This document shows positions 6,801-64,000 of a stretch of DNA of 64,000 bases, one piece after another. The position numbers were made by a program, and so were the translations under genes. The DNA comes from Owenia fusiformis (lineage: Eukaryota; Annelida; Polychaeta; Sabellida; Oweniidae), in the NCBI GenBank assembly GCA_903813345.2, contig CAIIXF020000007.1, positions 8,561,730 to 8,625,729 on the forward strand. The letters run 5' to 3'. Below the pieces are notes generated by a model. It worked only from the letters and a program-made list of their open reading frames with translations, ran no database searches and was not told the DNA's origin. The stretch's first letter is position 1, and each line of letters begins with the position of its first letter.

Positions 6801-9800
6801 TGGATCTTAAAAATCTATAAGTGGGACTCCATTTATAGAGGCTTTGAACTAAATTTCCACTTCTTAATGATGAAATTGATATTTTATCCATACATTTTAA
6901 GAAAATAGGTATATCAAAGATTTAAGCCAAATGTTGCACTGATAGCTCAGAAAAAGTAAAAGATTTTTTTCTCTACAGGCCTTGTTGCCCCTTTAATATT
7001 ACCAGTTGTATCAAATACGTTATAAAACAAGTATATCACAAACTAATGGCATAATGCATAATATACAGGGTGTCAAATAAGTCCCGTCCCCCCCTCTACA
7101 GCCAAAACCAAGATATATGGTACCAAGTGTGATATACTATTGGAAAGGTCTTCCAAAGTTACGTTGATTAGCATATATCTGAAACATGTCAATCAATCTC
7201 ACAAAGTTTTACAGTGTATCAATTGAGGTGACCATAGGCCTAGAAACATGGCAATTCGGCGCATTTCGCAGGATTTGCAGAATCGGGTATAAGAAAGGTC
7301 AAAGGACCTAAAAATGACTACATATGTTTATGGCAATGAATTTAACCAATTTCTGGATAGGGGAGGATGTGTAGAAAATAGAGGAGCAAGGTAAGTGGTG
7401 AAAACATTTTTGTAACAAGTGGAATTTGAAAAAGATTAAATTTTTGACGTATTTCTGAGGTCAAATCCTTCTCATTTTGAAGCAAAAAAGCTGCTTAAAT
7501 GAGGGTGTGCTAACTATAAAAGACATCATGAAAATATAGGTGAAGTTCATCCAAAATACTTGAGAGTTGGTGAGTTAACATAACTTTGTATGATCTTCCC
7601 AATGGTATATCACACTAGGCACCATCTATTAAGGTTCTAGCTGTAGCAGGGGGGACGGGACTTATTTGACACCCTGTAAATAATACTTTCTGTATGTCTT
7701 TATCAGTTTATATAATACTAGTATAAGATCAAATAATAATAATCATTATACATGGAATAAATTCAGCCATTGTATTGTTCTGGTTTAGAATCCTACACAG
7801 GACTACACAGTGCACAATTAATTTTTTTTCATTTGTCATCAAATGAGGAAATAAAAAAAAATGGGCCTGTAAACTAAAAAACTGAACTGGAATTTTTAGT
7901 CAGGTATTATGATTTATTATATGATATTCCGTGTTTGGCCACTAAAGGTTAACTGATTGTTTAGCAGGAATTCTGGGAATTAGGCTTTCTCATTTTTATT
8001 TTAATAGTAATCAGACCCAAATGAATAAATATTCCCTAATCTTAAAAAATTGATAGATATTTCACTGGGATGATTTGTAATGACAAAGTAGTTATTTTCA
8101 AGCATAAATTTAATTTACTTTGGGCTAAATGATTCACATTTAATGACGTTCACATCTGGGGTCTCGATATCTTTTTTATCAGTCATATCAATAACTGGTG
8201 TATAGATGTGATCCTGTTTATCAATCATTTATTGATGTTCATTATTTATAATACTGTTTCATCTAAATAAAAATAAACAGGTCATTGAGTGCATTTTCAG
8301 TTTTAATTACCATTTTAAATGCACTATGTAAACTTTTAACCGATCACTTGTGTGTATAATAAATATTAAAAATAATTAATTGAATAAATTAGGTAAAATG
8401 GGTAAAAACAATAAAACACTTGTATTTCTCTTGACATCTTTAATAGTCTTTATAATAATATCAACATATTTGAACTAGTATAAATATACTGTATGATTTA
8501 AGCATGGACAGATCTGTGATTATAAAAGGTTATCTTGGTAAATGTATACAAATCATTCATCTATGCAATATAATTTGTGTATCCCTTGCAGCCAAATTAC
8601 ACCATGTGTAATATAGTTCCCTTGACGCAGCACATTATCACATTTACAATATATTACTTACAATTAAGTACTATACATTTGACACAGTAAAGAACCTTAT
8701 GCAATACATAACCAAAGGTGCAATATATACTATACCTTAAGATGAAATATTTAACCTTAGCTTCAGTAAACAACCTTAGGTGCGATATATTACCTAAGGT
8801 GCAATAATATTACCTAAGGTGCAATATACTACCTAAGGTGCAATATATTACCTAAGGTGCAATATATTACCTAAGGTGCAATATATTACCTAAGTGCAAT
8901 ATATTACCTAAGATGCAATATATTACCTAAGGTGCAATATATTACCTAAAGTGCAATATATTACATTAGGTGCGATATATAAGGTGCAATATATTACCTA
9001 AGGTGCAATATATTACCTTGGTTATTTAGTCCAATATAGAACCATAGCTGCCATTGATATGCTATTAAATCAGAATGTTATCTACTTAACCATGACGGGT
9101 ATTATTGCTGAAAACAAGTTATTTGATATCATAACATGATTCAATATCAATAGAATTTGAAATCCTAGACAAGGTAGCATGTTAATAAAACAAATTCAAG
9201 AACAATCTGACTAGAATCATATATTGCCACAATTAAAATGTTAATGAAAGTTTGAAAATCTAGACATCTTCAATGGTTGAAATAAAATTGAATGTAATTG
9301 TTTTATAATTATCAATAAAGTGTTCCGCAAATTCTTTAAAAAAGTTGCTTTGGAGATATCAAACTTTCTCAGATTGGTTGTTTTGACAAGTAAAATCCAT
9401 GGCAGATAATACAGTTAATAAATATGTATCTTAAGATTATGTAAAAGACTTAACCTGTTTGTATGCTTAATATTTAAATATATTTAAATTATCTATACAA
9501 ACACTTCCAGCTAGATGATAATACTTAAGAATACAAGCTCATGCCATGCCTACTGGATTCTACAATTTGGAGAACAAAATCACGGTGACCAAGAGTTAAC
9601 AGTGCAAATCGGCCCGGTCGTGTTTTTTTTAACTCTTTAGTCGTGTTTTTTTGAAAATTTGAGAGGTAGGTTGATAAATTTGGTCATGAAATTGCTGTTA
9701 CTTGACTTTATGTAAAAGTAAGTAATTTATATTGCTTTCCATACTATATATCTTAACTTCAGGTATTCGTATTTGTGTTATTTGCACGAATCGTATGCTA

Positions 9801-12800
9801 TAGTCTTGTTATATTGGGAAATGAGCAATTCTGTCAGTGTTATACATATTTTTGCCTGAAAATCACTTGCCTGACTTATATTCAATGAATACATCGATTC
9901 ATAAGGAAAGCATTCACAATATGTGCGAAAATCAAAAGTTAGAAGAGCTTAAATAAGTAGCAATTGACCGAATAATATTTTTTAGATTAAACTCTTTAGA
10001 CGTGTTGAAAAGATTGCGGTTAATGACGTTGACCTGTTAGTGAAACGTTCTAGACGTGTAGAGACATTGAGGTTTAACTATTTGGAAGTGGGAAACAGCA
10101 CAACTAACATTATGTATTTCCCAAAAAATGATCACAATGTGGAAGAAGTTGTCTGAGTGACACTATCTTAATTATAAATGATTAACAATAATCAAATGTA
10201 CGACATAATATGTCAAGATTGATCTATGGGATCACTACCGAATTTGATACTTAAATCAAAATGGTTAGAATCAGACACGCATGGTTAATGCAAGCGAGCT
10301 TTGCCCCGTCGCTCGTCATTTTGAAAATTTTACCAGTCATATTATTTTTTAATTGCCCTGTCGCTCATTAAATGGCTCGTTGCTATTTTTGAATTTGCCT
10401 CAAATACGTTTTAAAACGTCCCTATTGGCCTTAAACTCACTTTTCCCTGTCATGAACGTAAATAAATTTATTTAAAATGAGAGGAAATGTTTGGTTTGTG
10501 ATGCACTACATGTAAATGCATATATATGATCACCTAATGTAAGGAATAACTCCACCGTTATTAAAATTGTATGCTCAATATCTATTAGGTTTGCCTCAGG
10601 ATTTTTAACAATTTGATTCGATGTTATTCCCTAATTCGCCTCACACAATGCAATACAATTTTAATTTTCAAATTGCAATAGGTAAAAAACGCTACATATG
10701 CTGCTATCGTTCTATGAGTGATCTATGAACTGTACTGTAACATAGTTTTCTAGCGAATTAAATTACAACATCTGTTGATCTTGTTAAATCATATATCTGT
10801 CTTTTTTATTTATTCTTATTTATTCATATCTTGACTACAAATTACAATAAACGGGTGACACATAATGTATATTCCCGTGTTTTATACTAATACATGAACA
10901 GATGGTGGGGATCTGCTTGTGTAATAATGCATACAATTTGTTTCTGGTTAATAGTGTGTGTCGCACTAGGCCCGCAAATTATTATAAAACCAACATAAAC
11001 TATAAATTATATTATTGATTAAGAAGAAACTTTTTGAGTTTTAACTTCTAGCAGAAATACGAGATAGTAAGAATTTAGATTTTCAATTTATTTTAGTACT
11101 AGATCGTGGATAGGGATGTCAATTCTGAACAGATCAGTCGGATGAACCTTCTCGTAATGTTCAAGGAAAGTGTTCTTATGAGCGCTTTTGAAAGAGCACG
11201 CGTGGCACTTATTCCGAGGAACTGAAATTACAAAATATGTGAATAGTCATGTAGTACAAACACTTATCTTCAAAGTACTAATACGATTATTTTCAGAAGC
11301 ACAGACAAATTATTAAGCAACAAAACATGGTCAATGTGAACAATATTACAAGACAATTCAAAGTCGTTAATTTTTTCATGTCTAAAACGTTATCTTTACA
11401 ATTCCAAAACGTTAACATGCTTATTATAAGACACGTCCATGACGTTATATTGTCCCTTCTCCATAGTTAACTCCACTTTCTACATTTACGGTCATTTATG
11501 GCAATTTTAAGATAAATACAGTTAAAATATTTACACGATCTTTAGAGTAGTGAATATTATTCCACGTTGTTGAATGGATTGTCTGTTTAAACTTGATTAA
11601 ATAACACTAAATGCAAATTAAGTACATATTTCTGGCACTTTTGGTATATAATTGCGATTGATATGAAGTATGATGGATTTATCCCCAAAATAGATTCGTG
11701 GGTATGAAGAAGAACATCTTAGGTAGAAGTCAAGATATGTAAGTTTGTAAAATATAGAATATTCTTACCATTTTGCTCCATTCTATCGAATGTCGCATCC
11801 CATGTTCTTACAAAACACGACTAAAGAGTTTAAAAAAACACGACCGGGCCGATTTGCACTGTTAACTCTTGGTCACCGTGAAAATGTGTTATGTTCACTG
11901 ACATGTTGTTCTGTGCAGTAATATGTTATTTAAAACAATAAAATCTTATTCTGAACAATAACATGTTTTTCTAAACATTTACATGTGATTCTGTATATCA
12001 ATGTCTTATTCTGCATAATGACATGTTATTCTGAACATTAACATGCTATTCTGTTCATTGACATGTTATTCTGCATATTGCCATGCTATTCCATACATTA
12101 ACATGTTATTCCATACATTTACATGTTATTCCGTATAATAACAGGTTAATTCTGAACATTAAGATATTATTCTAAACATTAAAACATGATTCTGAGAAGG
12201 ATAAGCCATAACAAGAACACAAATGTGTACAAAATGTCCCCACCAATGGGTGATCCCGTCAAATGGTTATCCTGAAAATGAGTAGACAAGACTTTACCGA
12301 CACAATTTGAGGACGGAAAATCCAAAATGACCACCTTAAAATTTACCCAGAATGCCAAAAAATAGTCAGTTCTAGATTTTCATACTAAGAATCATCTCTG
12401 AAAATTTGACATTGATCTACCAAACGGTTCACCTGGAAATGTGTGGACAAGACTTTACAGACAAGATTTTAGGACGGAAAATCCAAAATGGCCAACAATA
12501 AAAAAGTGATTATGAGTTTTTGCTGATTTCTTTTTACAAAATTATCAGAAATAACTACTGTTAACAATAACGTAGGCTTTTACAACAAAGTACACCTAAA
12601 ATTATTTATAAAGCTACTAAATAGTTAAAGTATGAAAACTCAAAAATACCAATATGATACAAAGTATTATCACGCACTAAGGTTTAAGGTAGTTATACAC
12701 ACATTGGTATAAAATTCTTGTCAATGTTTTTGAACTGCAAAAATACAATCAAAATTAAAATGATTCTGATCACCGGATCAATTCATATTAGTAGTATGTA

Positions 12801-33854: not shown

Positions 33855-35881
33855 ATGGCAGTGCCACAAAACACATTACAAGAGAAGATCTTACAGACGT
33901 TAGCTCAACAAGATGGTGTGTTGTTTGCAAGGAGAGCTATTGTACACCGTGGTGGATATAATGGAAGGAACATCCTAGGAAAGAACAGTAGTTTTAAGCC
34001 AGAATGTGTAGATGATAGAGGTTATGTTCCCGTAGAGTGGTGGGTCATGTCAAACACAACAGCCGAGAACACAATACCAAAAGAAAATGAGGGTGAGTAC
34101 AATCTGAAAGCACAATCATATTTAGATTGTGCTATATGAAATGTATTTTTATTGAGCCTGGACTTTCTAACTTTGGAGTGATTATAAGTGCCTTCGATCA
34201 CATAAAGTCCTACACTCTAACCATCCATAAATTTAAAAACATGATTGTGTCAAAGATGCAACATCTTGATAGATATCTCCATATTTTATTTTCAATGTGA
34301 TAAAATACAAAATTTAAGGGTATATACAATATTGCCAAATAACATACTTATAACATAGGGGGAGGGGTCTGGGTTCATAAGACAAGGTATGAGAGCGAGG
34401 AGCCTCTATTGGATAAGGTATGACAAGACCCTCAATACATTCTGGAAGTTCATGTGCTTATACATGTACAGACTTTTGATTATTTTCTTCATAGGTTTGA
34501 CAAAACTACTAATTGATGAAGAGGAGATTTTTCTGACTGATGCCCTAGCTGTTGCTGAGCAACAGTTGTTTGGTTGTTATGGCAACAAGTGGCCATTGGT
34601 TAAAGTTTTGGACATTGGAGGAGATCTGGTGGAGACATCTTTTGGGACTAAAGAGGTGCCACCTATCCCATGCCATGTTCACGCAGGTAAGACATATATT
34701 AATGTTAATACTAATACTAATTCAGGATAGAACAATTAAATTCTACTTAGAACCAATTAGCATTTAGTTCTGAGTTTGACCTCACAATTAACCACTGTAT
34801 TCCATTTATTGATGAACTTGTAGGTGAGTTCAAAGATGGAAGATGTTGCATGGAGGATGGTAAATTAGAGGCTTACTTCATGTTACCAGTAGACTGTCCA
34901 CCTTACAATATATACTTAGAAAAGGTATTGTCACATAATATACTGACACTGTAAAAAAGAAATTAAAGTTATTTTATCTTACAATATAATGTATACTTGG
35001 AGAAAGTATTTTGCCTTGTAACACATACCAAAACAAAGTATTTCTAAAGTTAAGACCAAGATAATTCGTAAGAAAATTCTGATTGGGTCTGACTGTAGTT
35101 TGGTTCCAAAAGTCCTTGCTCCCCAGGTTTCAAACAACATGTGGAGACATGGATTCAGAAATGGATTTTCATGTATAAACATTTCCAGGTTATTACAAGA
35201 CTTGGCTTGAAGCCCCAATGTAGCAAAGAGGACCTTGTGAAGGCAATGAAACAGTTTGGTTTTGACGACTCTTGCTACACCTTACTGAGAAGCTACCAGG
35301 TTCAGCCTTACGATTGCTGGACAATTAAACCGGGCATGGTGCACTCACCTGGGCCTTGGCCAACCTTAGAGGTGCAAAGACCCCAGGATGATGCAAACCA
35401 TTTAGCATGGGTACTCGGCTATGTTGAACCAGACCAGATTAAGCGATCAACAAAAAAGTCCCAGGAACAGTTGAGAGGTGTGCCAGATGAACAAGGTCTG
35501 CTAGATCACATGGTTGATTTTGATGGTTCAAGGGATCCAGAATTTGAAAGCAGATGGCGCCATAAGTGTCTTGAAATCTCATCTGGTAAATGGGGGCGAC
35601 ACTTTCAAATATTTTTTGGAGAGTTTTATGGAGAAGGAATGGAGATCAATTCAAATTCTCATTGGGTTCGGGAATTAGATGAACGACCATATATGGCAAT
35701 TGTATGGAGTGGAAGCGGGAAAATTCAAGGCAAGTTGGTAAGTGCAGAAATTGATGGCACTCAAGAAATACTAGTGACACCTGGTACAAAAGTGACAATT
35801 GAGAATACAGATGCCGTGAATAAACTGTTGGTTTATGCAGTTTTCCCAATCAGAAAAGATGCAACAAACAGCTTAAACTAA
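33855..35881 (+). CDS. Cupin protein, class I mannose-6-phosphate isomerase-like
   Basis: Exons 33855-34092, 34495-34686, 34824-34924 and 35189-35881 join in phase to 407 residues. The metal-ligand set typical of this cupin group is visible: H140 and H142 in PCHVHAGEF, E159 in GKLEAYF and H229 in PGMVHSPGPWP. A second beta-rich domain ends the protein (DERPYMAIVWSGSGKIQG to VYAVFPIRK). No signal peptide or organelle signal is clear. I infer a cytosolic metal-dependent sugar-phosphate isomerase or a relative; the exact substrate cannot be read, and the sequence is closer to bacterial-type cupins than to canonical animal MPI as I recall them. AATAAA near 36411 could be the poly(A) signal. The last exon is tandemly duplicated downstream. 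Confidence 0.85.
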
Positions 35882-37652
35882 TTAATGATGAAACATGTGA
35901 TTACCATCAACATTATGCTTCAAATTTTGTTGAATATTTGAAATTATTGAGAATAATAGAATAACTATTGTTAGGGTCTCTTTAATTGTAAAAATGTTGA
36001 TAGAATACTCTTGTACACTTTTAAGTTGATACCCTAGCCCTTATTTTCCATGGTTTAGTCTGAGTGTAAAATATAAAAATTTGTCAACCAATGTGAAATA
36101 TATAGGAATATTACTGGCAGTTTGGTTAATATGATTTTACTGTCAATGGGCAATGATAAAAATTCCCTTTTGTTTCAATGGATCTTTTCCACTTTGCTCA
36201 AAAATCCAAGATATATAATAATAGCCACCATGAAAGTACTAATTTACCCAGCATGCCATAAACCTAATCAGATATTGTCAAAAAAAAAAAAATTATTATT
36301 ATCTGTAAAAATTTCAATTTGAATGGATGAGCAGTTATCCTGGCTGCACAGACGCATGCATGTCCAACATCACCAGATGACAATATAAAACTTGACAATA
36401 TAAAAAGTGCAATAAAGTCTAACATATTTAATAACAATGTAAAAACAAACTATGATATAAATGTAAGATCATATATTATACCCTTCCTTTTATTCCCTTA
36501 TAAATTATGAAAATACATCATCCAAAAATAGATGAATCTAAGGATACAGCTTTTATAACTCATTCTCTGCTTATTGCTGGGATTTGACGTCCTTATCACA
36601 GTTTGCACATAAAATATTGCTTCAAAATGATATGTATCACAACATCTTCACGATTTACAATATGGGTCATTTCAAAATATCAAATACATTCATCCACATT
36701 ATTTGGACTGATCTATCATAAATGGCATTATAATAATTTTTAATCAATTTAAAACCAAACAATTCTTTTTCACATTTTCAAGTATTGCAGAGATTCAACA
36801 ATATTGATAGTTTCTAAAAACATAAGAAGTCTAAACCATTGAACACTTAGCAACAATATCATAAAAATAATGTTAGACAGTGAATTCTATAGTAACATGC
36901 ACTTTAGAGTTCAAATGCACTCATAGACTAAGGAAATAGATACCTTTGCAGGTACTTCTATATGAATAATTTGATATGTAAAATCCTCTCAAATCACATG
37001 ATGCAAATACTCGTATAAATACTTTTCTTAAATACCTAGATTTCCCATAAATAGTCACTCAAAGCACACAAAAAAGAAAGCAGCAACTATGAAAGCATCA
37101 ATCAAATAATTATTATCTTATTTGCGTAAATTCAATTGCATATTATGTGAGATACAGTTTGATCACCATTGGTATATGGAGCTTTCACATTGGACCTAAT
37201 GGCTTGTTGCCATGACGGCAGGATAAGCATTGACAGGATCTAATTGGCCCGTCAAGATTGGAGCTTTATTGTGAATTCAAAATGTAAAACAAAGTCGATC
37301 AATCTTCAAAGGATCGGACCTAAATTTTGATATCCGATTTCAAATCTGAAAGTGATTTACTATAAATTATTATTATGAACATAATATCAAGTTGGTTTAA
37401 CAATGCTAGATATCAGAGAACCATATACCAAGGGTGTTCACACTGAAATATGATTTGAGTATACTCAGGGACATAAACACCTATAAAATGACCATTTTAT
37501 AATATTTTTAAAAAATCTTAGTAATTGTGTCACTGGGGCCCATTTTTGGTACAATCATACTTGTGATTTCTAGAAATTTTGTACTCTTAAATGGACAATG
37601 ACAGGTATGACAAGTACAACCTAATCAAAAATTACAAAAGTTGTTCCAAAAA
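35196..37652 (+). repeat. Tandem duplication, copy 1 (contains last exon of cupin gene)
   Basis: A segment of about 2.46 kb starts seven bases inside the last exon of the cupin gene and runs about 1.77 kb past its stop. The same sequence recurs immediately at 37660. The offset is 2464 at the left edge and 2465 at the right edge. The indels I noticed are an A run of 13 against 12 and one extra TA in copy 2. Confidence 0.95.
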
Positions 37653-37659
37653 GACAAGA

Positions 37660-40117
37660 CAAGACTTGGCTTGAAGCCCCAATGTAGCAAAGAGGACCTT
37701 GTGAAGGCAATGAAACAGTTTGGTTTTGACGACTCTTGCTACACCTTACTGAGAAGCTACCAGGTTCAGCCTTACGATTGCTGGACAATTAAACCGGGCA
37801 TGGTGCACTCACCTGGGCCTTGGCCAACCTTAGAGGTGCAAAGACCCCAGGATGATGCAAACCATTTAGCATGGGTACTCGGCTATGTTGAACCAGACCA
37901 GATTAAGCGATCAACAAAAAAGTCCCAGGAACAGTTGAGAGGTGTGCCAGATGAACAAGGTCTGCTAGATCACATGGTTGATTTTGATGGTTCAAGGGAT
38001 CCAGAATTTGAAAGCAGATGGCGCCATAAGTGTCTTGAAATCTCATCTGGTAAATGGGGGCGACACTTTCAAATATTTTTTGGAGAGTTTTATGGAGAAG
38101 GAATGGAGATCAATTCAAATTCTCATTGGGTTCGGGAATTAGATGAACGACCATATATGGCAATTGTATGGAGTGGAAGCGGGAAAATTCAAGGCAAGTT
38201 GGTAAGTGCAGAAATTGATGGCACTCAAGAAATACTAGTGACACCTGGTACAAAAGTGACAATTGAGAATACAGATGCCGTGAATAAACTGTTGGTTTAT
38301 GCAGTTTTCCCAATCAGAAAAGATGCAACAAACAGCTTAAACTAATTAATGATGAAACATGTGATTACCATCAACATTATGCTTCAAATTTTGTTGAATA
38401 TTTGAAATTATTGAGAATAATAGAATAACTATTGTTAGGGTCTCTTTAATTGTAAAAATGTTGATAGAATACTCTTGTACACTTTTAAGTTGATACCCTA
38501 GCCCTTATTTTCCATGGTTTAGTCTGAGTGTAAAATATAAAAATTTGTCAACCAATGTGAAATATATAGGAATATTACTGGCAGTTTGGTTAATATGATT
38601 TTACTGTCAATGGGCAATGATAAAAATTCCCTTTTGTTTCAATGGATCTTTTCCACTTTGCTCAAAAATCCAAGATATATAATAATAGCCACCATGAAAG
38701 TACTAATTTACCCAGCATGCCATAAACCTAATCAGATATTGTCAAAAAAAAAAAATTATTATTATCTGTAAAAATTTCAATTTGAATGGATGAGCAGTTA
38801 TCCTGGCTGCACAGACGCATGCATGTCCAACATCACCAGATGACAATATAAAACTTGACAATATAAAAAGTGCAATAAAGTCTAACATATTTAATAACAA
38901 TGTAAAAACAAACTATGATATAAATGTAAGATCATATATTATACCCTTCCTTTTATTCCCTTATAAATTATGAAAATACATCATCCAAAAATAGATGAAT
39001 CTAAGGATACAGCTTTTATAACTCATTCTCTGCTTATTGCTGGGATTTGACGTCCTTATCACAGTTTGCACATAAAATATTGCTTCAAAATGATATGTAT
39101 CACAACATCTTCACGATTTACAATATGGGTCATTTCAAAATATCAAATACATTCATCCACATTATTTGGACTGATCTATCATAAATGGCATTATAATAAT
39201 TTTTAATCAATTTAAAACCAAACAATTCTTTTTCACATTTTCAAGTATTGCAGAGATTCAACAATATTGATAGTTTCTAAAAACATAAGAAGTCTAAACC
39301 ATTGAACACTTAGCAACAATATCATAAAAATAATGTTAGACAGTGAATTCTATATAGTAACATGCACTTTAGAGTTCAAATGCACTCATAGACTAAGGAA
39401 ATAGATACCTTTGCAGGTACTTCTATATGAATAATTTGATATGTAAAATCCTCTCAAATCACATGATGCAAATACTCGTATAAATACTTTTCTTAAATAC
39501 CTAGATTTCCCATAAATAGTCACTCAAAGCACACAAAAAAGAAAGCAGCAACTATGAAAGCATCAATCAAATAATTATTATCTTATTTGCGTAAATTCAA
39601 TTGCATATTATGTGAGATACAGTTTGATCACCATTGGTATATGGAGCTTTCACATTGGACCTAATGGCTTGTTGCCATGACGGCAGGATAAGCATTGACA
39701 GGATCTAATTGGCCCGTCAAGATTGGAGCTTTATTGTGAATTCAAAATGTAAAACAAAGTCGATCAATCTTCAAAGGATCGGACCTAAATTTTGATATCC
39801 GATTTCAAATCTGAAAGTGATTTACTATAAATTATTATTATGAACATAATATCAAGTTGGTTTAACAATGCTAGATATCAGAGAACCATATACCAAGGGT
39901 GTTCACACTGAAATATGATTTGAGTATACTCAGGGACATAAACACCTATAAAATGACCATTTTATAATATTTTTAAAAAATCTTAGTAATTGTGTCACTG
40001 GGGCCCATTTTTGGTACAATCATACTTGTGATTTCTAGAAATTTTGTACTCTTAAATGGACAATGACAGGTATGACAAGTACAACCTAATCAAAAATTAC
40101 AAAAGTTGTTCCAAAAA
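37660..40117 (+). pseudogene. Tandem duplication, copy 2: orphan last exon of the cupin gene
   Basis: The frame over 37660-38345 encodes the same 229 residues as the end of the cupin gene, with no difference seen. The copy has neither the splice acceptor nor the upstream exons, because the breakpoint lies inside the exon. The open frame extends left only to a TTG, with no ATG before the shared part, so a functional protein would need a new promoter and start or exon skipping from copy 1. It also carries the duplicated 3' flank with its AATAAA near 38876. The absence of substitutions means a very recent event, a gene-conversion product or an assembly artefact. Confidence 0.85.
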
Positions 40118-43700: not shown

Positions 43701-46700
43701 TTCGTGTCATGTTGCCTTATGTTTGCAGATGCGAAAGATGATATATTGAGGTCAGAATAAAAGCAGAAAAATATTAAAGTCATCTTTTAGATTCAGTCTT
43801 CTCATTAGTTTATCATATTCCATATATCTGAATGAACAGTTTTAGTCGTGTGACTCTCGGGAATGAGCCAATTCCAGATGGGTAGAGTCTCAAATGGATG
43901 ATTTTCTATATAACTAGGACTAAAATCACATAGATTCAGCCAAATTGATCATTATGCTACACATGGATACCTCAAACAGACTTTTTACATACCTTCATTT
44001 TCTCTTTTATTTGTTTGTATACTGCACCAATTATAAGTCTTGGAGCTGAAAATAGACCAAATACATAAATACATACACGTCGTATGATGAACCGAAAATA
44101 TTACAGCAGTATCATCCTGGCTCCCTCGATATCCACTTACATGTGGTCATCAAAGAATTTCATGTAAAGCTTTCGCTGGTAACATATTTTAGGAAGCCTG
44201 AGAAATCGAGAAATGATGTTTACTATTTTTACATTTACTATATTGTTTTCAGGTGTTCAAACCAATGTAAGAACCAAAATAAAATAAAATTATTTGCAAG
44301 GGGTTTACATTCATCTTTTCTCACAATTTTGTATTAAATTGTATAAATCAGAACACTGTGTCTCTCATTCGAACCTCACAGAATTTAAACTAAATAATGC
44401 ATACATTGCTCTCTTAAACAAATAACATGTACTGTCACATTGCAAAAAATTCATTTAAAAAATAGAACAACTTTGGAATTCTTACAAATAACAAAATAAT
44501 GGAAGTTATACAAGGTGTACATACCATATATATGTAGCTATACAATGTACTTACTAAGCCCCCTTCTGTCCCCTATGCCATAATGTATTGCTGGTCTAAC
44601 AATGCAGTAATCTAAGTCTGGTATTGTCTCTAGCTCTACCTCCACGAGTCTCTTATGTTTGGCAAGGTTGGTCCAGGGCTCCACTTTGTGGTCTTCCTTT
44701 ACTGCAGTCTGAAAAATGCAGGAAAGAAAACTTAATTGAAGATATGTTAAAAACAGAGTTAAATACATGGAGAAAACATGAATATCTGAATAGAAATGTA
44801 AACATGAAGAAACACTTCTGAAATCATATCTGGTCACAAGTACAAAGCACACATACAGACACTTTTGAACACATGTAGAAAACACTTATGAACACAAGTA
44901 CAAAGCATACATACAGACACTTTTGAACACATGTAGGAAACACATATGAACACAAGTACAAAGCACACATACAGACACTTTTGAACACATGTAGAAAACA
45001 CTTTTGAACATAAGTACAAAGCACACATACAGACACTTTTGAACACATGTAGAAAACACTTATGAACACAAGTACAAAGCATACATACAGACACTTTTGA
45101 ACACATGTAGAAAACACTTTTGAACACAAGTACAAAGCACACATACAGACACTTTTGAACACATGTAGAAAACACTTATGAACACAAGTACACAAAACAT
45201 GTGTAGAAAACACATATGAACACAAGTACACAAAACATGTGTAGAAAACATTTCTGAACACAAGTAAAAAACACTTATGAACACAAGTACAAAAAACATG
45301 TAGAAAACATTTCTGAACATATGTAGAAAACACTTATGAACACAAGTAAAAAACACTTATGAACACAAAAACAAAATACATGCAGAAAATACTTTTGAAC
45401 ACATGTAGAAAACACTTCAGAAAAAAGTAGAAAACACCATCTGATTATTAGTATAATAGTAAAACACATGTAAAAAATACTTTTGTTGCATAATGACAGT
45501 AGTTAAATGAGCATGACATGTATTTACCTTACTGCTAGAAAACATTTGGCCACTAGAAATCTCAATATATCGGCTACATTTGTGTGCTGCTGCAGCTCTG
45601 GCACAATTCATACTAAGCTGTAATATACCTTCCTTGTACACCTGCAATGTAACAATACTAAGCTGTAATATACCTTCCTTGTACACCTGCAATGTAACAA
45701 TACTAAGTTGAATATACCTTCCTTGTACACCTGCAATGTAACAATACTAAGCTGTAATATACCTTCCTTGTACACCTGCAATGTAACAATACTAAGCTGT
45801 AATATATCTTCCTTGTACACCTGCAATGTAACAATACTAAGCTGTAATATATCTTCCTTGTACACCTGCAATGTAACAATACTAAGCTGTAATATACCTT
45901 CCTTGTACACCTGCAATGTAACAATACTAAGCTGTAATATATCTTCCTTGTACACCTGCAATGTAACAATACTAAGCTTTAATATACCTTCCTTGTACAC
46001 CTGCAATGTAACAATACTAAGCTGTACTATATCTTCCTTGTACACCTGCAATGTAACAATACTAAGCTGTAATATACCTTCCTTGTACACCTGCAATGTA
46101 ACAATACTAAGTTGATGACCATATAACAATGCAATGTAACAATACTAAGCTGTAATATACCTTCCTCGTACACCTGCAATGTAACAACACTAAGTTGATG
46201 ATCATATAACAATGCAATGTAACAATACTAAGCTGTAATATACCTTCCTTGTACACCTGCAATGTAACAATACTAAGCTGTACTATATCTTCCTTGTACA
46301 CCTGCAATGTAACAATACTAAGCTGTACTATACCTTCCTTGTACACCTGCAATGTAACAATACTAAGCTGTAATATATCTTCCTTGTACACCTGCAATGT
46401 AACAATACTAAGCTGTAATATATCTTCCTTGTACACCTGCAATGTAACAATACTAAGCTGTAATATATCTTCCTTGTACACCTGCAATGTAACAATACTA
46501 AGCTGTAATATACCTTCCTTGTACACCTGCAATGTAACAATACTAAGCTGTAATATACCTTCCTTGTACACCTGCAATGTAACAATACTAAGTTGATGAT
46601 CATATAACAATGCAATGTAACAATACTAAGCTGTAATATACCTTCCTTGTACACCTGCAATGTAACAATACTAAGTTGAATATACCTTCCTTGTACACCT

Positions 46701-49700
46701 GCAATGTAACAATACTAAGTTGATGACCATATAACAATGCAATGTAACAATACTAAGCTGTAATATACCTTCCTTGTACACCTGCAATGTAACAATACTA
46801 AGTTGAATATACCTTCCTTGTACACCTGCAATGTAACAATACTAAGCTGTAATATATCTTCCTTGTACACCTGCAATGTAACAATACTAAGCTGTAATAT
46901 ATCTTCCTTGTACACCTGCAATGTAACAATACTAAGTTGAATATACCTTCCTTGTACACCTGCAATGTAACAATACTAAGCTGTAATATACCTTCCGTGT
47001 ACACCTGCAATGTAACAATACTAAGCTGTAATATACCTTCCTTGTACACCTGCAATGTAACAATACTAAGCTGTAATATACCTTCCTTGTACACCTGCAA
47101 TGTAACAATACTAAGCTGTAATATACCTTCCTTGTACACCTGCAATGTAACAATACTAAGCTGTAATATACCTTCCTTGTACACCTGCAATGTAACAATA
47201 CTAAGCTGTAATATATCTTCCTTGTACACCTGCAATGTAACAATACTAAGCTGTAATATATCTTCCTTGTACACCTGCAATGTAACAATACTAAGTTGAA
47301 TATACCTTCCTTGTACACCTGCAATGTAACAATACTAAGCTGTAATATATCTTCCTTGTACACCTGCAATGTAACAATACTAAGCTGTAATATACCTTCC
47401 TTGTACACCTGCAATGTAACAATACTAAGCTGTAATATATCTTCCTTGTACACCTGCAATGTAACAATACTAAGCTGTAATATACCTTAATTGTACACCT
47501 GCAATGTAACTTGTGGATGATGATATAACAATGCAATTTAACTATAAAAGAAAGAACAATGCAAGTTACCTGTAATGTAAGTTATGATTATCATATGATA
47601 ACAATGCAAAGTTAGTTCAAATAAATACCAACAACTATAACAATGCAAAATTGCTGAGACTTTGAAAAGTTTTAACTAACAGAGATGTTCCACTTTACAG
47701 GTTTCATACATACATATAAATAATGATTGGTAACAAACTTTTAAATAGTAATGCAAAAAATAATGATTGTTATGTTACATTGTGATAAATAAAAAGTGCT
47801 TAGAATTTCTACAAAAAATGTTTTGAAGCACTATATATGTATTTCCTAATGTTTTAACCAATACCAAAAATATACATACTCATGTACACATTAAAGAAAG
47901 ATAAAAAACTTAAAAATTAATTTGAAAGAAAGGGTTTCAAATAGAGGAAAGAATAAATAGATATATAGAATGATGAGAAAACAAGGAAATTGTAAAATAT
48001 ATACAATAAAATTGAGAGTTCACAAAGGAGTATGTAGTTTATTGTATAATAGACAAAAATACAACAAACAAACAGTTTTCACAACAGTACACTTTATACA
48101 TTTACAATTCAATTCACTAAAAAATTTACTTTAAATGATTTTTAACAGGAAACCCCACACCAACATAGTGTTTAAGATAAAGAACATTTACAACTTCTTG
48201 CAAATCCATCAATTCAAAGATTTTCAAATTTCTAAATTGTATATCAGTATTTGAATCTTAAAACAGAACTGACTTCTAAAGTTATATGTACAATTTCAAA
48301 AGATTGTCAGTTGTGGAGGAGGTTAACTGTTGAAAATGAAGTGAACAGAAAATCAACATTTTTCAAATTTCATTTTTGAGAGTGATAAACCAATTTCCAA
48401 CCCAAAAATCAATTTAATTATATATAAACTGATGATATTTGGATGGACACGTAAACACTTACACTAGAAAAAATAAAATAAAAACAACACCAAACTAACA
48501 ATACTACACAAATGGAGTGACCCTCACTCACTCAATTACTCACACAGAGTGAATTCACCCTATGCAGACAGAGCCTGTGGGAAATATTGGGTGCGGAGCA
48601 AATGAGCGGAGGGTGCGGAGCTAACGGTTATTTTTGAATTTAAATTTGGGATATATCTGAAACTAAGCCGTTTTGGGACTTCAAATATACCAAGATATGT
48701 GTATTTGACACCAAATATCAATACAATTGTGAAAATAGTAGCGCAATTCATTCTATAGCGACGCAGTGTGCCTTAAACCTTTCCCAGACCTATATATTTT
48801 GAAATTATCCTTTTTATACTGAGTCCCCAGCATTCATAAAAAATGGTGTTCAAGGTGCACTATCTATACAAATTATTTTTGCATCTTGGAAGCCAGGCAG
48901 TATCTGTGTGATTTTATAAAAATTCGGAAATTTTTTCAGATATGAGCCCCCTCTAAATATTGGGTGCGGAGCAGCTCCATAAACGTAGCTCCGCACCCAA
49001 TATTTAGAGGGGGCTCATATCTGAAAAAATTTCCGAATTTTTATAAAATAACACAGATACTGCCTGGCTTCCAAGATGCAAAAATAATTTGCATGGGTAG
49101 TGTATCTTGAACACCATTTTTTATGAATGCTGGGGACGCAGTATTAAAAGGATAGTCTCAAAATATATAGGTCTGGGAAATGTTTAAGGCATACTGCGTC
49201 GCTATAAAATGAATTGCACTACTATTTTCACAATTTTATTGATATTTGGTGTCAAATACACATATCTTGGTATATTTGAAGTCCCAAAACGGCTTAGTTT
49301 CAGAAATATCCCAATTTTAAATTCAAAAATGACCGTTAGCTCCGCACCCTCCGCTCATTTGCGCCGCACCCAATATTTCCCACAGGCTCTGTCTGCATAG
49401 GGTGGAATTTAAAAGTGAAAGTGAAAATGCAATTGGGAAGGAGTACTCACAGCACTTATTTCGGACTTGAGGCAAAATTGGAAAAAATATATTTCCGTTG
49501 ACATAATGTATTCTTTAATTTAAATTTCAATTGGTTCAAATTGTCATATCATTATTTCTATTTTTCTTATTTTATCAAAAATTCAGGGTGCAAACAGGGT
49601 GGTATATTATGTATTGTGTGAACATATTGATTTATAAATGAAAGTGTGATTATAATGCACATACATTAGAGGACCTCAATAAAGTTCCAATTATAACATT

Positions 49701-61300: not shown

Positions 61301-64000
61301 GACCCTTTAATTGGTATCATTGATTGTAAATCAGGCCCGTAGCCTGCTCGAACCCATCAAACCCCCCCTGGCCAAAAAATCTTTCAAAATGACAAAATCA
61401 TGCAGTTTTTTTTTCCTTTCTGAGCACTTTTTAAGTGATTTTGGCCATTTTGGATCAAGATTGTCAAAAGTGACCCCCCCCTATAATTTTTCAAAAAGTG
61501 AACCCCCCCTTGGCAAATGCTGGCTATGGGCCTGTAAATCACTTAAAAAAAGTGTGAACTCCCTTATGGCTTATTGCTATGTTTACAGGTGACACAGTTC
61601 AAAGAGGAATACAAAACTCAAGCAGAGAAACTTGTGTCAGAAGTGTTACCCAAGAAAGTGATTGAACTCAACGACATTCTGAATGTAAGTATAGCAATAA
61701 CATGAACATTGACTTACTAAAGTGTCAGGCCTCTTTGTCATTATTTGGGTGAAATATCATTTGGTTGATTTTTTCTCTTGATTATTACATTGATTGCATG
61801 TTGACATTTTGTATGCTCACAACATGCGTTTAATTTTTCTCTCCATCTGTTTTTTCCATATAACTGATATCTCATGTATTAAAGCAGAACGTGTATTATC
61901 TATACAGAGAGGTTTTGACATATGATAGGTGATCGTGAGTGTACATGTATTTCAGTTGAAAGATTTTGATGCTGCACGTGTGACAGATATTAACACAGAT
62001 CTTAACATACCAGTTCCAGAGGTGGTCTTAAACAATGATGCAGATGGGGTAAGTTACAGCTTAAGAAGTTAACTTTTGAGGTGGCTCCATAAGCCCCTGG
62101 CCAAAATTCTTTTCTAAATCAAGCCAGTTTTCATCATCTGAGCACTTTCAAGTGATTTTGGGCCAAAATTTTTCAATTTGAACTCCATAGTCTTTTTAAA
62201 AAAAACTGAACCCCCTTGGCAAAAGCTGGCTATGGGCCTGGAGCGAAACTAGTAACTATACATGTACAATATTTTCAGCCCCAACCAAAAAAGCGAAAGC
62301 TGGACCTTATGGATGGGTTATCCGAGTTTCCAGGTATATAATCAGTTACTTTTGGGTTAATTTTCTTGTTATTAATTCTGAACCTACACTTACTTGAAAA
62401 AATGCTTGCCAAGCTGTTGAGTAGCAGTACCTCTTAAATTGTTCCAAAGATCCCATATCGTCTTGACTTCACTCCTTAGATGTGATTTTGTATAATGATT
62501 TCAAATATAATACCGGTTTGACTTCGTTTAGAATATTTAATAATAAAAATCAAGATTATGTTGTATCTAGTCTATTGACTTGTTTTTCCACATATCACCA
62601 TCCTTAATGAATTAATAATTAAATTGCAGGTTGTCGAATACTAGGATTACCAAATGGCACATCTCCCTCAAACAAGCACATCTCATCTTTGCTAGATCAA
62701 GTCAAGCCATACATTAGAGACCTCATAGATCATGCAAATATGGTAAGTTTAACATTAGAGACCTCATAGATCATGCAAATATGGTAAGCTTAACATTAGA
62801 GACCTCATAGATCATGCAAATATGGTAAGCTTAACATTAGAGACCTCATAGATCATGCAAATATGGTAAGCTTAACATTAGAGACCTCATAGATCATGCA
62901 AATATGGTAAGCTTAACATTAGAGACCTCATAGATCATGCAAATATGGCTAGCTTAACATAAGAGACCTTATAGATCATGCAAATATGGTAAGCTTAACA
63001 TTAGAGACCTATTAGATCATGCAAATATGGTAAGCTTAACATTAGAGACCTCTTAGATCATGCAAATATGGTAGGATTTACATTAGACATCTTATAGATC
63101 ATGAATATAGTAAGCTTAACATTAGAGACCTTAAAGATCATGCAAATATGGTAAGCTTAACATTAGAGACCTCATAGATCATGCAAATATGGTAAGCTTA
63201 ACATTAGAGACCTTATAGAGCATGCAAATATGGTAAGCTTAACATTAGAGACCTCACAGATCATGCAAATATGGTAGGAGTAACATTAGACATCTTATAG
63301 ATCATGCAAATATGATAGGATTAACATTAGAGACCTTATGGATAATGCAAATATTGTAAGCTTAACATTAGAGACCTTATAGATCATGCAAATATGGTAA
63401 GCTTAACATTAGAGACCTCATAGATCATGCAAATATGGTAAGCCTAACATAGATCATGGATATGGCAGTTAGTGTATAAGAGACCTCAAAGATCATGCAA
63501 ATAAAGTTTTGATGAAATTTTGATTTTAAACATAGTAAATGTACTAGAATAAGACAGTTAGGTGCAATAATCCAGTAATCACTATATATATAATTGGAGT
63601 TTTCATTTCAGATCCGTATGTGGATAGCTTTCCTAATGCCCAAGATTGAAGATGGCAACAATTTTGGTGTGTCTATACAGGTATGTTACTGCCAAGAGGA
63701 ATTTATTAATAAAATAGACTTAGGAAATATATAATGTATCTAAGGAGTGGGATGGGTATTTTTTTAGTGCATACAGAATATCCACCTTTAATTCACTCCA
63801 TCATTTGGGGAGTTCAGTTTACCTGCATATTATGTTAAAATCTCATTCCCTCTAAATAAATCATATATCTAATACCTCTCAGTGGATATATCTCATATAT
63901 ACTGTACATGTTTTATACATACAAACATTACTTCTATATTCTTAGGAAGACAGTATGTCAGAAGCACGACAGGTTGAAAGTGAGGCTGCATCATATCTAG
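58322..64000 (+). CDS. PSME3: Proteasome activator PA28-gamma-like subunit (5' part, truncated by window)
   Basis: PA28-gamma forms a heptameric ring that caps the 20S proteasome in the nucleus. Exons: 58322-58345, 61589-61684, 61956-62048, 62279-62333, 62630-62742, 63612-63680 and 63946 to beyond 64000, in phase, giving 168 residues so far. QFKEEYKTQAEKLVSEVLPK and PKKVIELND are the N-terminal PA28 helix. INTDLNIPVPEVVL matches the conserved linker. PKKRKL at 74-79 is a monopartite nuclear localisation signal, as expected of the gamma type. LLDQVKPYIRDLIDHANM, IEDGNNFGVSIQ and VESEAASYL are the C-terminal PA28 domain; IEDGNNFGVSIQ matches human PSME3. The last third lies outside. Exon 1 codes only eight residues and is the least certain; intron 5 carries a donor minisatellite. 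Confidence 0.93.
59535..59670. repeat. Foldback with TGCATTCTGGGAG arms
   Basis: GGATTGACTCCCAGAATGCA and its inverse TGCATTCTGGGAGCCAATCC bracket about 85 bases. It lies in intron 1 of the PSME3-like gene. CCCAGAATGCA also resembles the core of a ZNF143/Staf site, but the foldback explains its presence. Confidence 0.7.
59910..60312. repeat. About 400-bp foldback in PSME3-like intron 1
   Basis: The left arm from CTAGAGTCCATTTCACTGCT to CAAATGTCATTC-type sequence is repeated inverted, ending AGTGAAATGGACTCTAG. The arms are about 135 bp and nearly identical, with a loop of about 130 bp. Short frames over the loop are incidental. Confidence 0.88.
60685..60840. repeat. Short foldback in PSME3-like intron 1
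   Basis: GGCTACTTCGTCAGGCTATTTCGACC and GGTTATTTCGACATTT-type segments at the left match inverse forms (GGTCGAAATAGCCC, ATGACGAAGTAACC) at the right, with some mispairs. Confidence 0.55.
61330..62240. repeat. Two copies of a dispersed repeat around exons 2 and 3
   Basis: Segments 61360-61535 and 62085-62242 share GAGCACTTT-AAGTGATTTTGG, AAAAGTGAACCCCC-type and CTTGGCAAA-GCTGGCTATGG motifs, both ending GGCTATGGGCCTG. They are diverged direct copies of one element, in introns 1 and 3. Confidence 0.7.
62711..63495. repeat. 41-bp minisatellite built from the exon 5 donor of the PSME3-like gene
   Basis: About 18-19 units of ATTAGAGACCTCATAGATCA, TGCAAATATG, GTAAGCTTAAC. Unit 1 is the real exon end (encoding IRDLIDHANM) and its donor ATATG|GTAAGT at 62742/62743. 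The later units copy the last 30-odd coding bases plus the donor into intron 5. About 13 units keep GGTAAG; others read GGCTAG, GGTAGG, AGTAAG, GATAGG or TGTAAG. Confidence 0.95.

Follow-up and report, generated by a model that had tools for sequence, protein, structure and literature searches.

In a 64,000-nucleotide stretch of the Owenia fusiformis genome (GenBank assembly GCA_903813345.2, contig CAIIXF020000007.1, positions 8,561,730 to 8,625,729; hereafter the window), the donor splice site of one PSME3 exon is continued into the intron by a minisatellite, whose 41-bp units repeat the exon end together with the start of the intron. The PSME3 protein annotated for Owenia follows the first of these donors. 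We consider it probable that the array is an ordinary exon-edge minisatellite of the "mirage" type, which was seeded at the exon end and is tolerated since splicing takes the copy nearest to the exon. Mirages have been described for the amphioxus genes Adh3, BflGb6 and BflGb9 (both globins), PGBD5 and TnC. They are boundary-spanning repeats at either exon edge with a homogenised interior and unstable length, and regular splicing is apparently undisturbed (PMC3087553, PMC3902484).

The PSME3 donor array and its decoys

The conceptual PSME3 protein (a 239-aa query) matches the annotated Owenia protein P0001 with 100% identity and 100% coverage, and P0001 contains the PA28_N and PA28_C domains. 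A protein search against the Owenia assembly (498 Mb in 525 contigs, with the window on contig C7) returned eight matches, all within C7:8623318-8628028, which represent exons of one PSME3 gene. C7 comprises 39,776,147 bases in this assembly and the contig given for P0001 and for P0121, a protein discussed below, 39,792,004. The exon-intron boundary at the array is backed by an alignment with PSME3 from the PDB which crosses ...IDHANM/IRMWIAF... (slashes mark splice junctions) and by P0001. An earlier note on this DNA had numbered the array-bearing exon as exon 5; it is coding exon 5 provided that the first eight N-terminal residues of P0001 form one exon. The intron that follows spans 62743-63611 (869 nt). 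Features of the region, in window positions, are:

62630..62742, + strand: PSME3 coding exon (CRILGLP...IDHANM), from sequence, PDB PSME3 alignment and P0001; its final 32 nt form the exon-derived portion of unit 1
62711..63446, + strand: 41-bp array of 18 units (unit 10 has 39 bp), from Tandem Repeats Finder (TRF) and wrap-around alignment; unit of 32 nt exon end and 9 nt intron start
62743..62751, + strand: authentic donor, ATG/GTAAGTTTA, with GT at 62743-62744; the sole GTAAGT in 18 units
62767..62769, + strand: in-frame TAG, encountered on use of donor 2 or any later donor and on intron retention
62784..63443, + strand: 17 decoy donor positions, 11 of them intact ATG/GTAAGC and 6 changed (units 6, 9, 10, 14, 15 and 16)
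63447..63503, + strand: degenerate terminal remnants, the last of which retains AAGTTT (with the +6 T of donor 1) without TGGT
63612..63680, + strand: next PSME3 exon (IRMWIAF...SIQ), from sequence, PDB alignment and P0001; acceptor AG at 63610-63611

TRF reported 62711-63450 with period 41, 18.1 copies, 91% match and a score of 1221. Together with wrap-around alignment, this confirms the tandem array of about 18 5′ splice sites that the earlier note had described, as well as its reading of the unit as coding bases from the exon end plus the intron start. The array does not begin at the genuine donor, as had been stated, but 32 nt inside the exon, and unit 1 consists of the final 32 nt of the exon followed by GTAAGTTTA. 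As is characteristic of mirages, each tandem unit contains exon and intron sequence across the real boundary. Units 2-5 and 12 are identical. At position +6, T occurs only in unit 1 and in the last remnant, while units 2-18 carry C in 14 cases and A in three; this confinement of T to the two ends corresponds to a homogenised interior from which border copies are excluded. Wrap-around alignment placed the remnants after unit 18 at 63447 and 63475-~63503. The last of them aligns with unit 1 through AAGTTT and, without TGGT, provides no donor.

The array was read from one assembly, and an assembly or collapse artefact could be suspected. However, the differences between units are patterned and the surrounding gene yields the full annotated protein, so that we regard an artefact as very improbable. 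Insertion of a dispersed satellite or mobile element at the exon edge is harder still to believe, since unit 1 is coding sequence of PSME3. Moreover, the stretch matches itself alone in its own genome, a weak argument in view of a search that disregards simple repeats and words of very high frequency.

Donor 1 (ATG/GTAAGT) has a predicted U1 pairing energy of -9.1 kcal/mol, compared with -8.0 kcal/mol for the 11 intact decoys (ATG/GTAAGC). All 17 decoys lack the +6 T, and the idea that they equal donor 1 in strength has to be given up. Among the changed decoys, GT is lost in units 6 (GCTAGC) and 15 (ATAGGA), the G at -1 is lost in units 10 (ATA/GTAAGC) and 16 (ATT/GTAAGC), with predicted pairing of -4.5 and -4.3 kcal/mol, and units 9 and 14 read GTAGGA (-7.7 kcal/mol). 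Many splice signals, if not all, are therefore kept, as in other mirages: GT in 16 of 18 units and ATG/GTAAG in 12. The earlier estimate of a third of the units being damaged is appropriate for the donor core, which deviates in 6/18, and too high for GT itself (2/18). The predicted accessibility of 9-nt RNA segments was low throughout, at 0.001-0.016, and donor 1 did not differ in this from the decoys, with the donor of unit 10 (GT at 63110) placed 2 bp out of register in this calculation; because of this similarity, RNA structure was rejected as the donor selector.

From donor 1 onwards, the intron frame encodes VSLTLETS and then TAG, which bears out the expectation that any donor beyond the first introduces a stop. 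Use of a later donor or intron retention would thus yield a truncated PSME3 that ends eight codons beyond donor 1, and the further exon junctions downstream would be expected to expose such mRNAs to nonsense-mediated decay (NMD).

Exon-edge arrays at other Owenia genes

The acceptor array with which the PSME3 array had been compared is real and lies in the same window:

45610..47510, - strand: acceptor mirage of an SDR/epimerase gene, 45-bp unit; CAG kept in 39 of 43 acceptor-motif copies including the authentic one, lost in 4

This array ends at the SDR exon, about 15 kb from the PSME3 array. The annotated Owenia SDR protein P0121 contains VYKEGILQLS once, and each of the two orthologues compared (P0122 and P0189) has one related stretch. 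The two copies nearest to the authentic acceptor are open in the exon frame, and their use would add 15-residue repeats. Both annotated proteins, P0001 and P0121, follow the exon-nearest copy; the annotated site is therefore in both genes the exon-nearest copy, which is also the one copy whose use does not alter the protein. The two proteins presumably stem from the published Owenia annotation, which was built with RNA-seq alignments and splice-junction hints (PMC9977687).

Similar architecture was found at unrelated genes in a survey of kinase exons. A family search listed 144 matches, from 124 of 876 candidates scored, and 40 partial-domain matches were hand-picked down the ranking in two batches, with flanks unread beforehand and near-identical neighbours skipped. 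The resulting 80 edges were taken where profile matches end and are not proven exon edges, and repeats of period 10-21 beside exons were left out of the counts. Exon-edge arrays were present at 4 of the 80 edges, in 3 of the 40 matches, whose best PDB matches are MEK1, PAK 1 and CDKL5:

C10:27469400-27470800, - strand: MEK exon (L044), donor mirage, 54 bp, 3.9 copies (TRF); exon end repeated in frame
C5:68821-70377: PAK exon (L054), mirages at both edges; acceptor 86 bp, 4 copies; donor 71 bp, 2 copies
CDKL5-like exon: acceptor mirage, 51 bp, about 5 copies

The length of the MEK unit is divisible by three, and the frame is open through the contiguous part of the array, so that a decoy would add residues, presumably of the activation segment, and not a stop. 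Only one of the five listed MEK decoy copies keeps GTAAGT, and later units are interspersed with copies of a second repeated sequence. Acceptors are intact in all four PAK and all five CDKL5 listed copies; the PAK acceptor decoys are closer to each other than to the true exon.

As background, we sampled 200 kb of C7 in 20 evenly spaced 10-kb stretches. Minisatellites are dense, with 24 arrays of at least 100 bp in this sample and 11 arrays in the window. With period of at least 30, at least 1.9 copies and a score of at least 200, 19 arrays remained in the sample, and 1.6% of it is occupied by their terminal units, counted on one side. Random placement would thus give 1.28 positive edges among 80 (P(>=4)=0.041), under thresholds that were chosen with the kinase arrays already known and with two of the four positive edges, in one PAK exon, being non-independent. 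In this small sample, which says nothing of a preference for exon edges, arrays do not avoid them. These data suggest that exon-edge minisatellites may be frequent in the Owenia genome. Whether they occur genome-wide, affecting a few percent of the edges of coding exons, with splicing passing over thousands of intact intron-side decoy donors and acceptors for the copy that makes the exon shortest, we judge to be an even bet.

Several other repeats fall outside this class. An intronic array (L067) was excluded from the mirage count. On C7 (C7:39000001-39010000, 7138-10000 of this stretch), a 73-bp unit in at least 39 copies starts inside a Trefoil-domain coding sequence and spans its stop codon, and was for that reason rejected as an exon-intron mirage; a Pfam match was obtained for one of eight open frames at array borders. 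Two adjoining kinase matches at C10:2256201-2258200 (L031), which cover one and the same part of the profile and lie outside the survey counts, are diverged copies of a whole exon, which we take to be GSK3-like, and no mirage; they are possibly mutually exclusive exons. Within the window, two long open frames on the + strand (35099-35881 and 37611-38345) share, by eye, a run of more than 200 identical residues, perhaps as a result of recent duplication.

Probable origin and tolerance of the array

The PSME3 array was probably seeded by a short tandem duplication straddling the exon end and then grew toward the intron, with slippage or unequal exchange as the probable mechanism. A unit lacking the +6 T would have spread through the interior, leaving the presumably older T in the two end copies; the last remnant points to the lengthening of an intron already present. 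The gene would remain functional since splicing selects the donor closest to the exon: donor 1 has this place, is slightly the stronger and yields the shortest exon, a choice that exon definition would favour, and any decoy product should be removed by NMD.

The earlier note had left open whether damaged donors reflect neutral decay or selection against decoys, and the column rates favour the former. Relative to the consensus, units 2-18 differ in 11 of 153 donor-column cells and in 25 of 544 cells elsewhere (Fisher p=0.22), cells that are non-independent in that units 9, 14 and 15 share variants. The donor columns show neither protection nor excess decay and, as they change no less than the others, donor-site decay looks neutral. 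If selection had instead removed competitors of donor 1, this would account for the absence of the +6 T from 17 of 17 decoys, for the lack of TGGT in the only other copy with this base and for the single GTAAGT among the five listed MEK decoy copies. On the other hand, loss of the +6 T can be explained as one event followed by amplification, column rates do not support selection, and acceptors remain intact in the SDR (39/43), PAK (4/4) and CDKL5 (5/5) copies listed. Such selection is in our estimation unlikely.

We attach a similarly low probability to a regulatory device, in which decoys would send part of the pre-mRNA to NMD and thereby set the PSME3 level, adjusted through the number of units. 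The stop after eight codons from any decoy and the intactness of 11 of 17 decoys would suit such a device; a switch of this kind, with alternative donors and NMD, is known in mammalian Hps1 (PMC4222953), and in C. elegans a minisatellite is enriched close to regions of alternative splicing (PMC4039745). However, donor columns do not show reduced change. Furthermore, like arrays occur in genes without relation to PSME3 and also at acceptors, among them the MEK array with its in-frame 54-bp unit without a stop, which argues for a general mutational process.

Several points weigh against a tolerated, ordinary mirage. Use of the exon-nearest site is read from annotated proteins. Tandem repeats at exon-intron boundaries alter splicing in human paralogues (PMC2812944) and IFI6 is said to use two downstream minisatellite units as donors (PMC4526556), so that ignored decoys cannot be assumed. 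All decoys being weaker than donor 1, the sole other +6 T copy being donorless and the scarcity of GTAAGT in MEK are what selection would predict likewise, although most of the +6 T pattern is explained by a single ancestral change that was then amplified. In U1 pairing, donor 1 and the intact decoys differ by only 1.1 kcal/mol, and predicted accessibility fails to distinguish donor 1 from the decoys. Finally, the non-independence of column counts, the late choice of thresholds and the shared PAK exon limit the statistics.

Comparison with known systems

Structures of this type are already known, and what appears new, within our limited literature search, is the lineage and the apparent frequency. 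Reportedly, Turri, Cuin and Porter showed in 1995 that a minisatellite of human IFI6 (6-16) gives multiple splice donors. The Owenia array resembles IFI6 in that a minisatellite supplies several donors (PMC4526556), and differs in that its decoys, if used, would add an in-frame stop. The human paralogues likewise carry minisatellite-sized repeats at exon-intron boundaries, but these are reported to change splicing and to form novel introns (PMC2812944). In polyubiquitin UBC, splice sites also recur once per tandem unit; there, however, AGGT in coding units serves as donor and acceptor at once (PMC10809524), whereas the PSME3 units are intronic with ATG/GT, and GT follows ATG, ATA or ATT in 16 of 18 units and never AG. 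Intron gain by tandem duplication shares the short duplication with splice motifs (PMC2891723, PMC4974935), but no new intron is apparent at the PSME3 array.

Near-identical tandem splice sites largely take sequence strength out as a variable and could be used to test other determinants of site choice. The annotated PSME3 and SDR sites are, among near-equal copies, those closest to their exons, in line with exon definition. If such arrays do occur genome-wide, the Owenia genome would offer a natural experiment on a large scale, in which exon definition could be set against intron definition and AG scanning. Moreover, exon-edge arrays bear on the possible origin of extra introns and exons from repeats.

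The closest likeness is to amphioxus. In a literature search of limited reach, we found mirages for lancelet genes only and none for Owenia or another annelid. As in BflGb6, where the interior evolves in concert and border copies are excluded (PMC3087553), the end copies of the PSME3 array differ from the rest. Copy numbers are higher in Owenia, with 18 donor units in PSME3 and 43 acceptor-motif copies in SDR compared with 6 in one BflGb6 haplotype and 3 in another, and Annelida are another phylum. While amphioxus mirages have been reported for a handful of genes, the annelid arrays at donors and acceptors of unrelated genes suggest that a repeat-rich genome makes them routinely.
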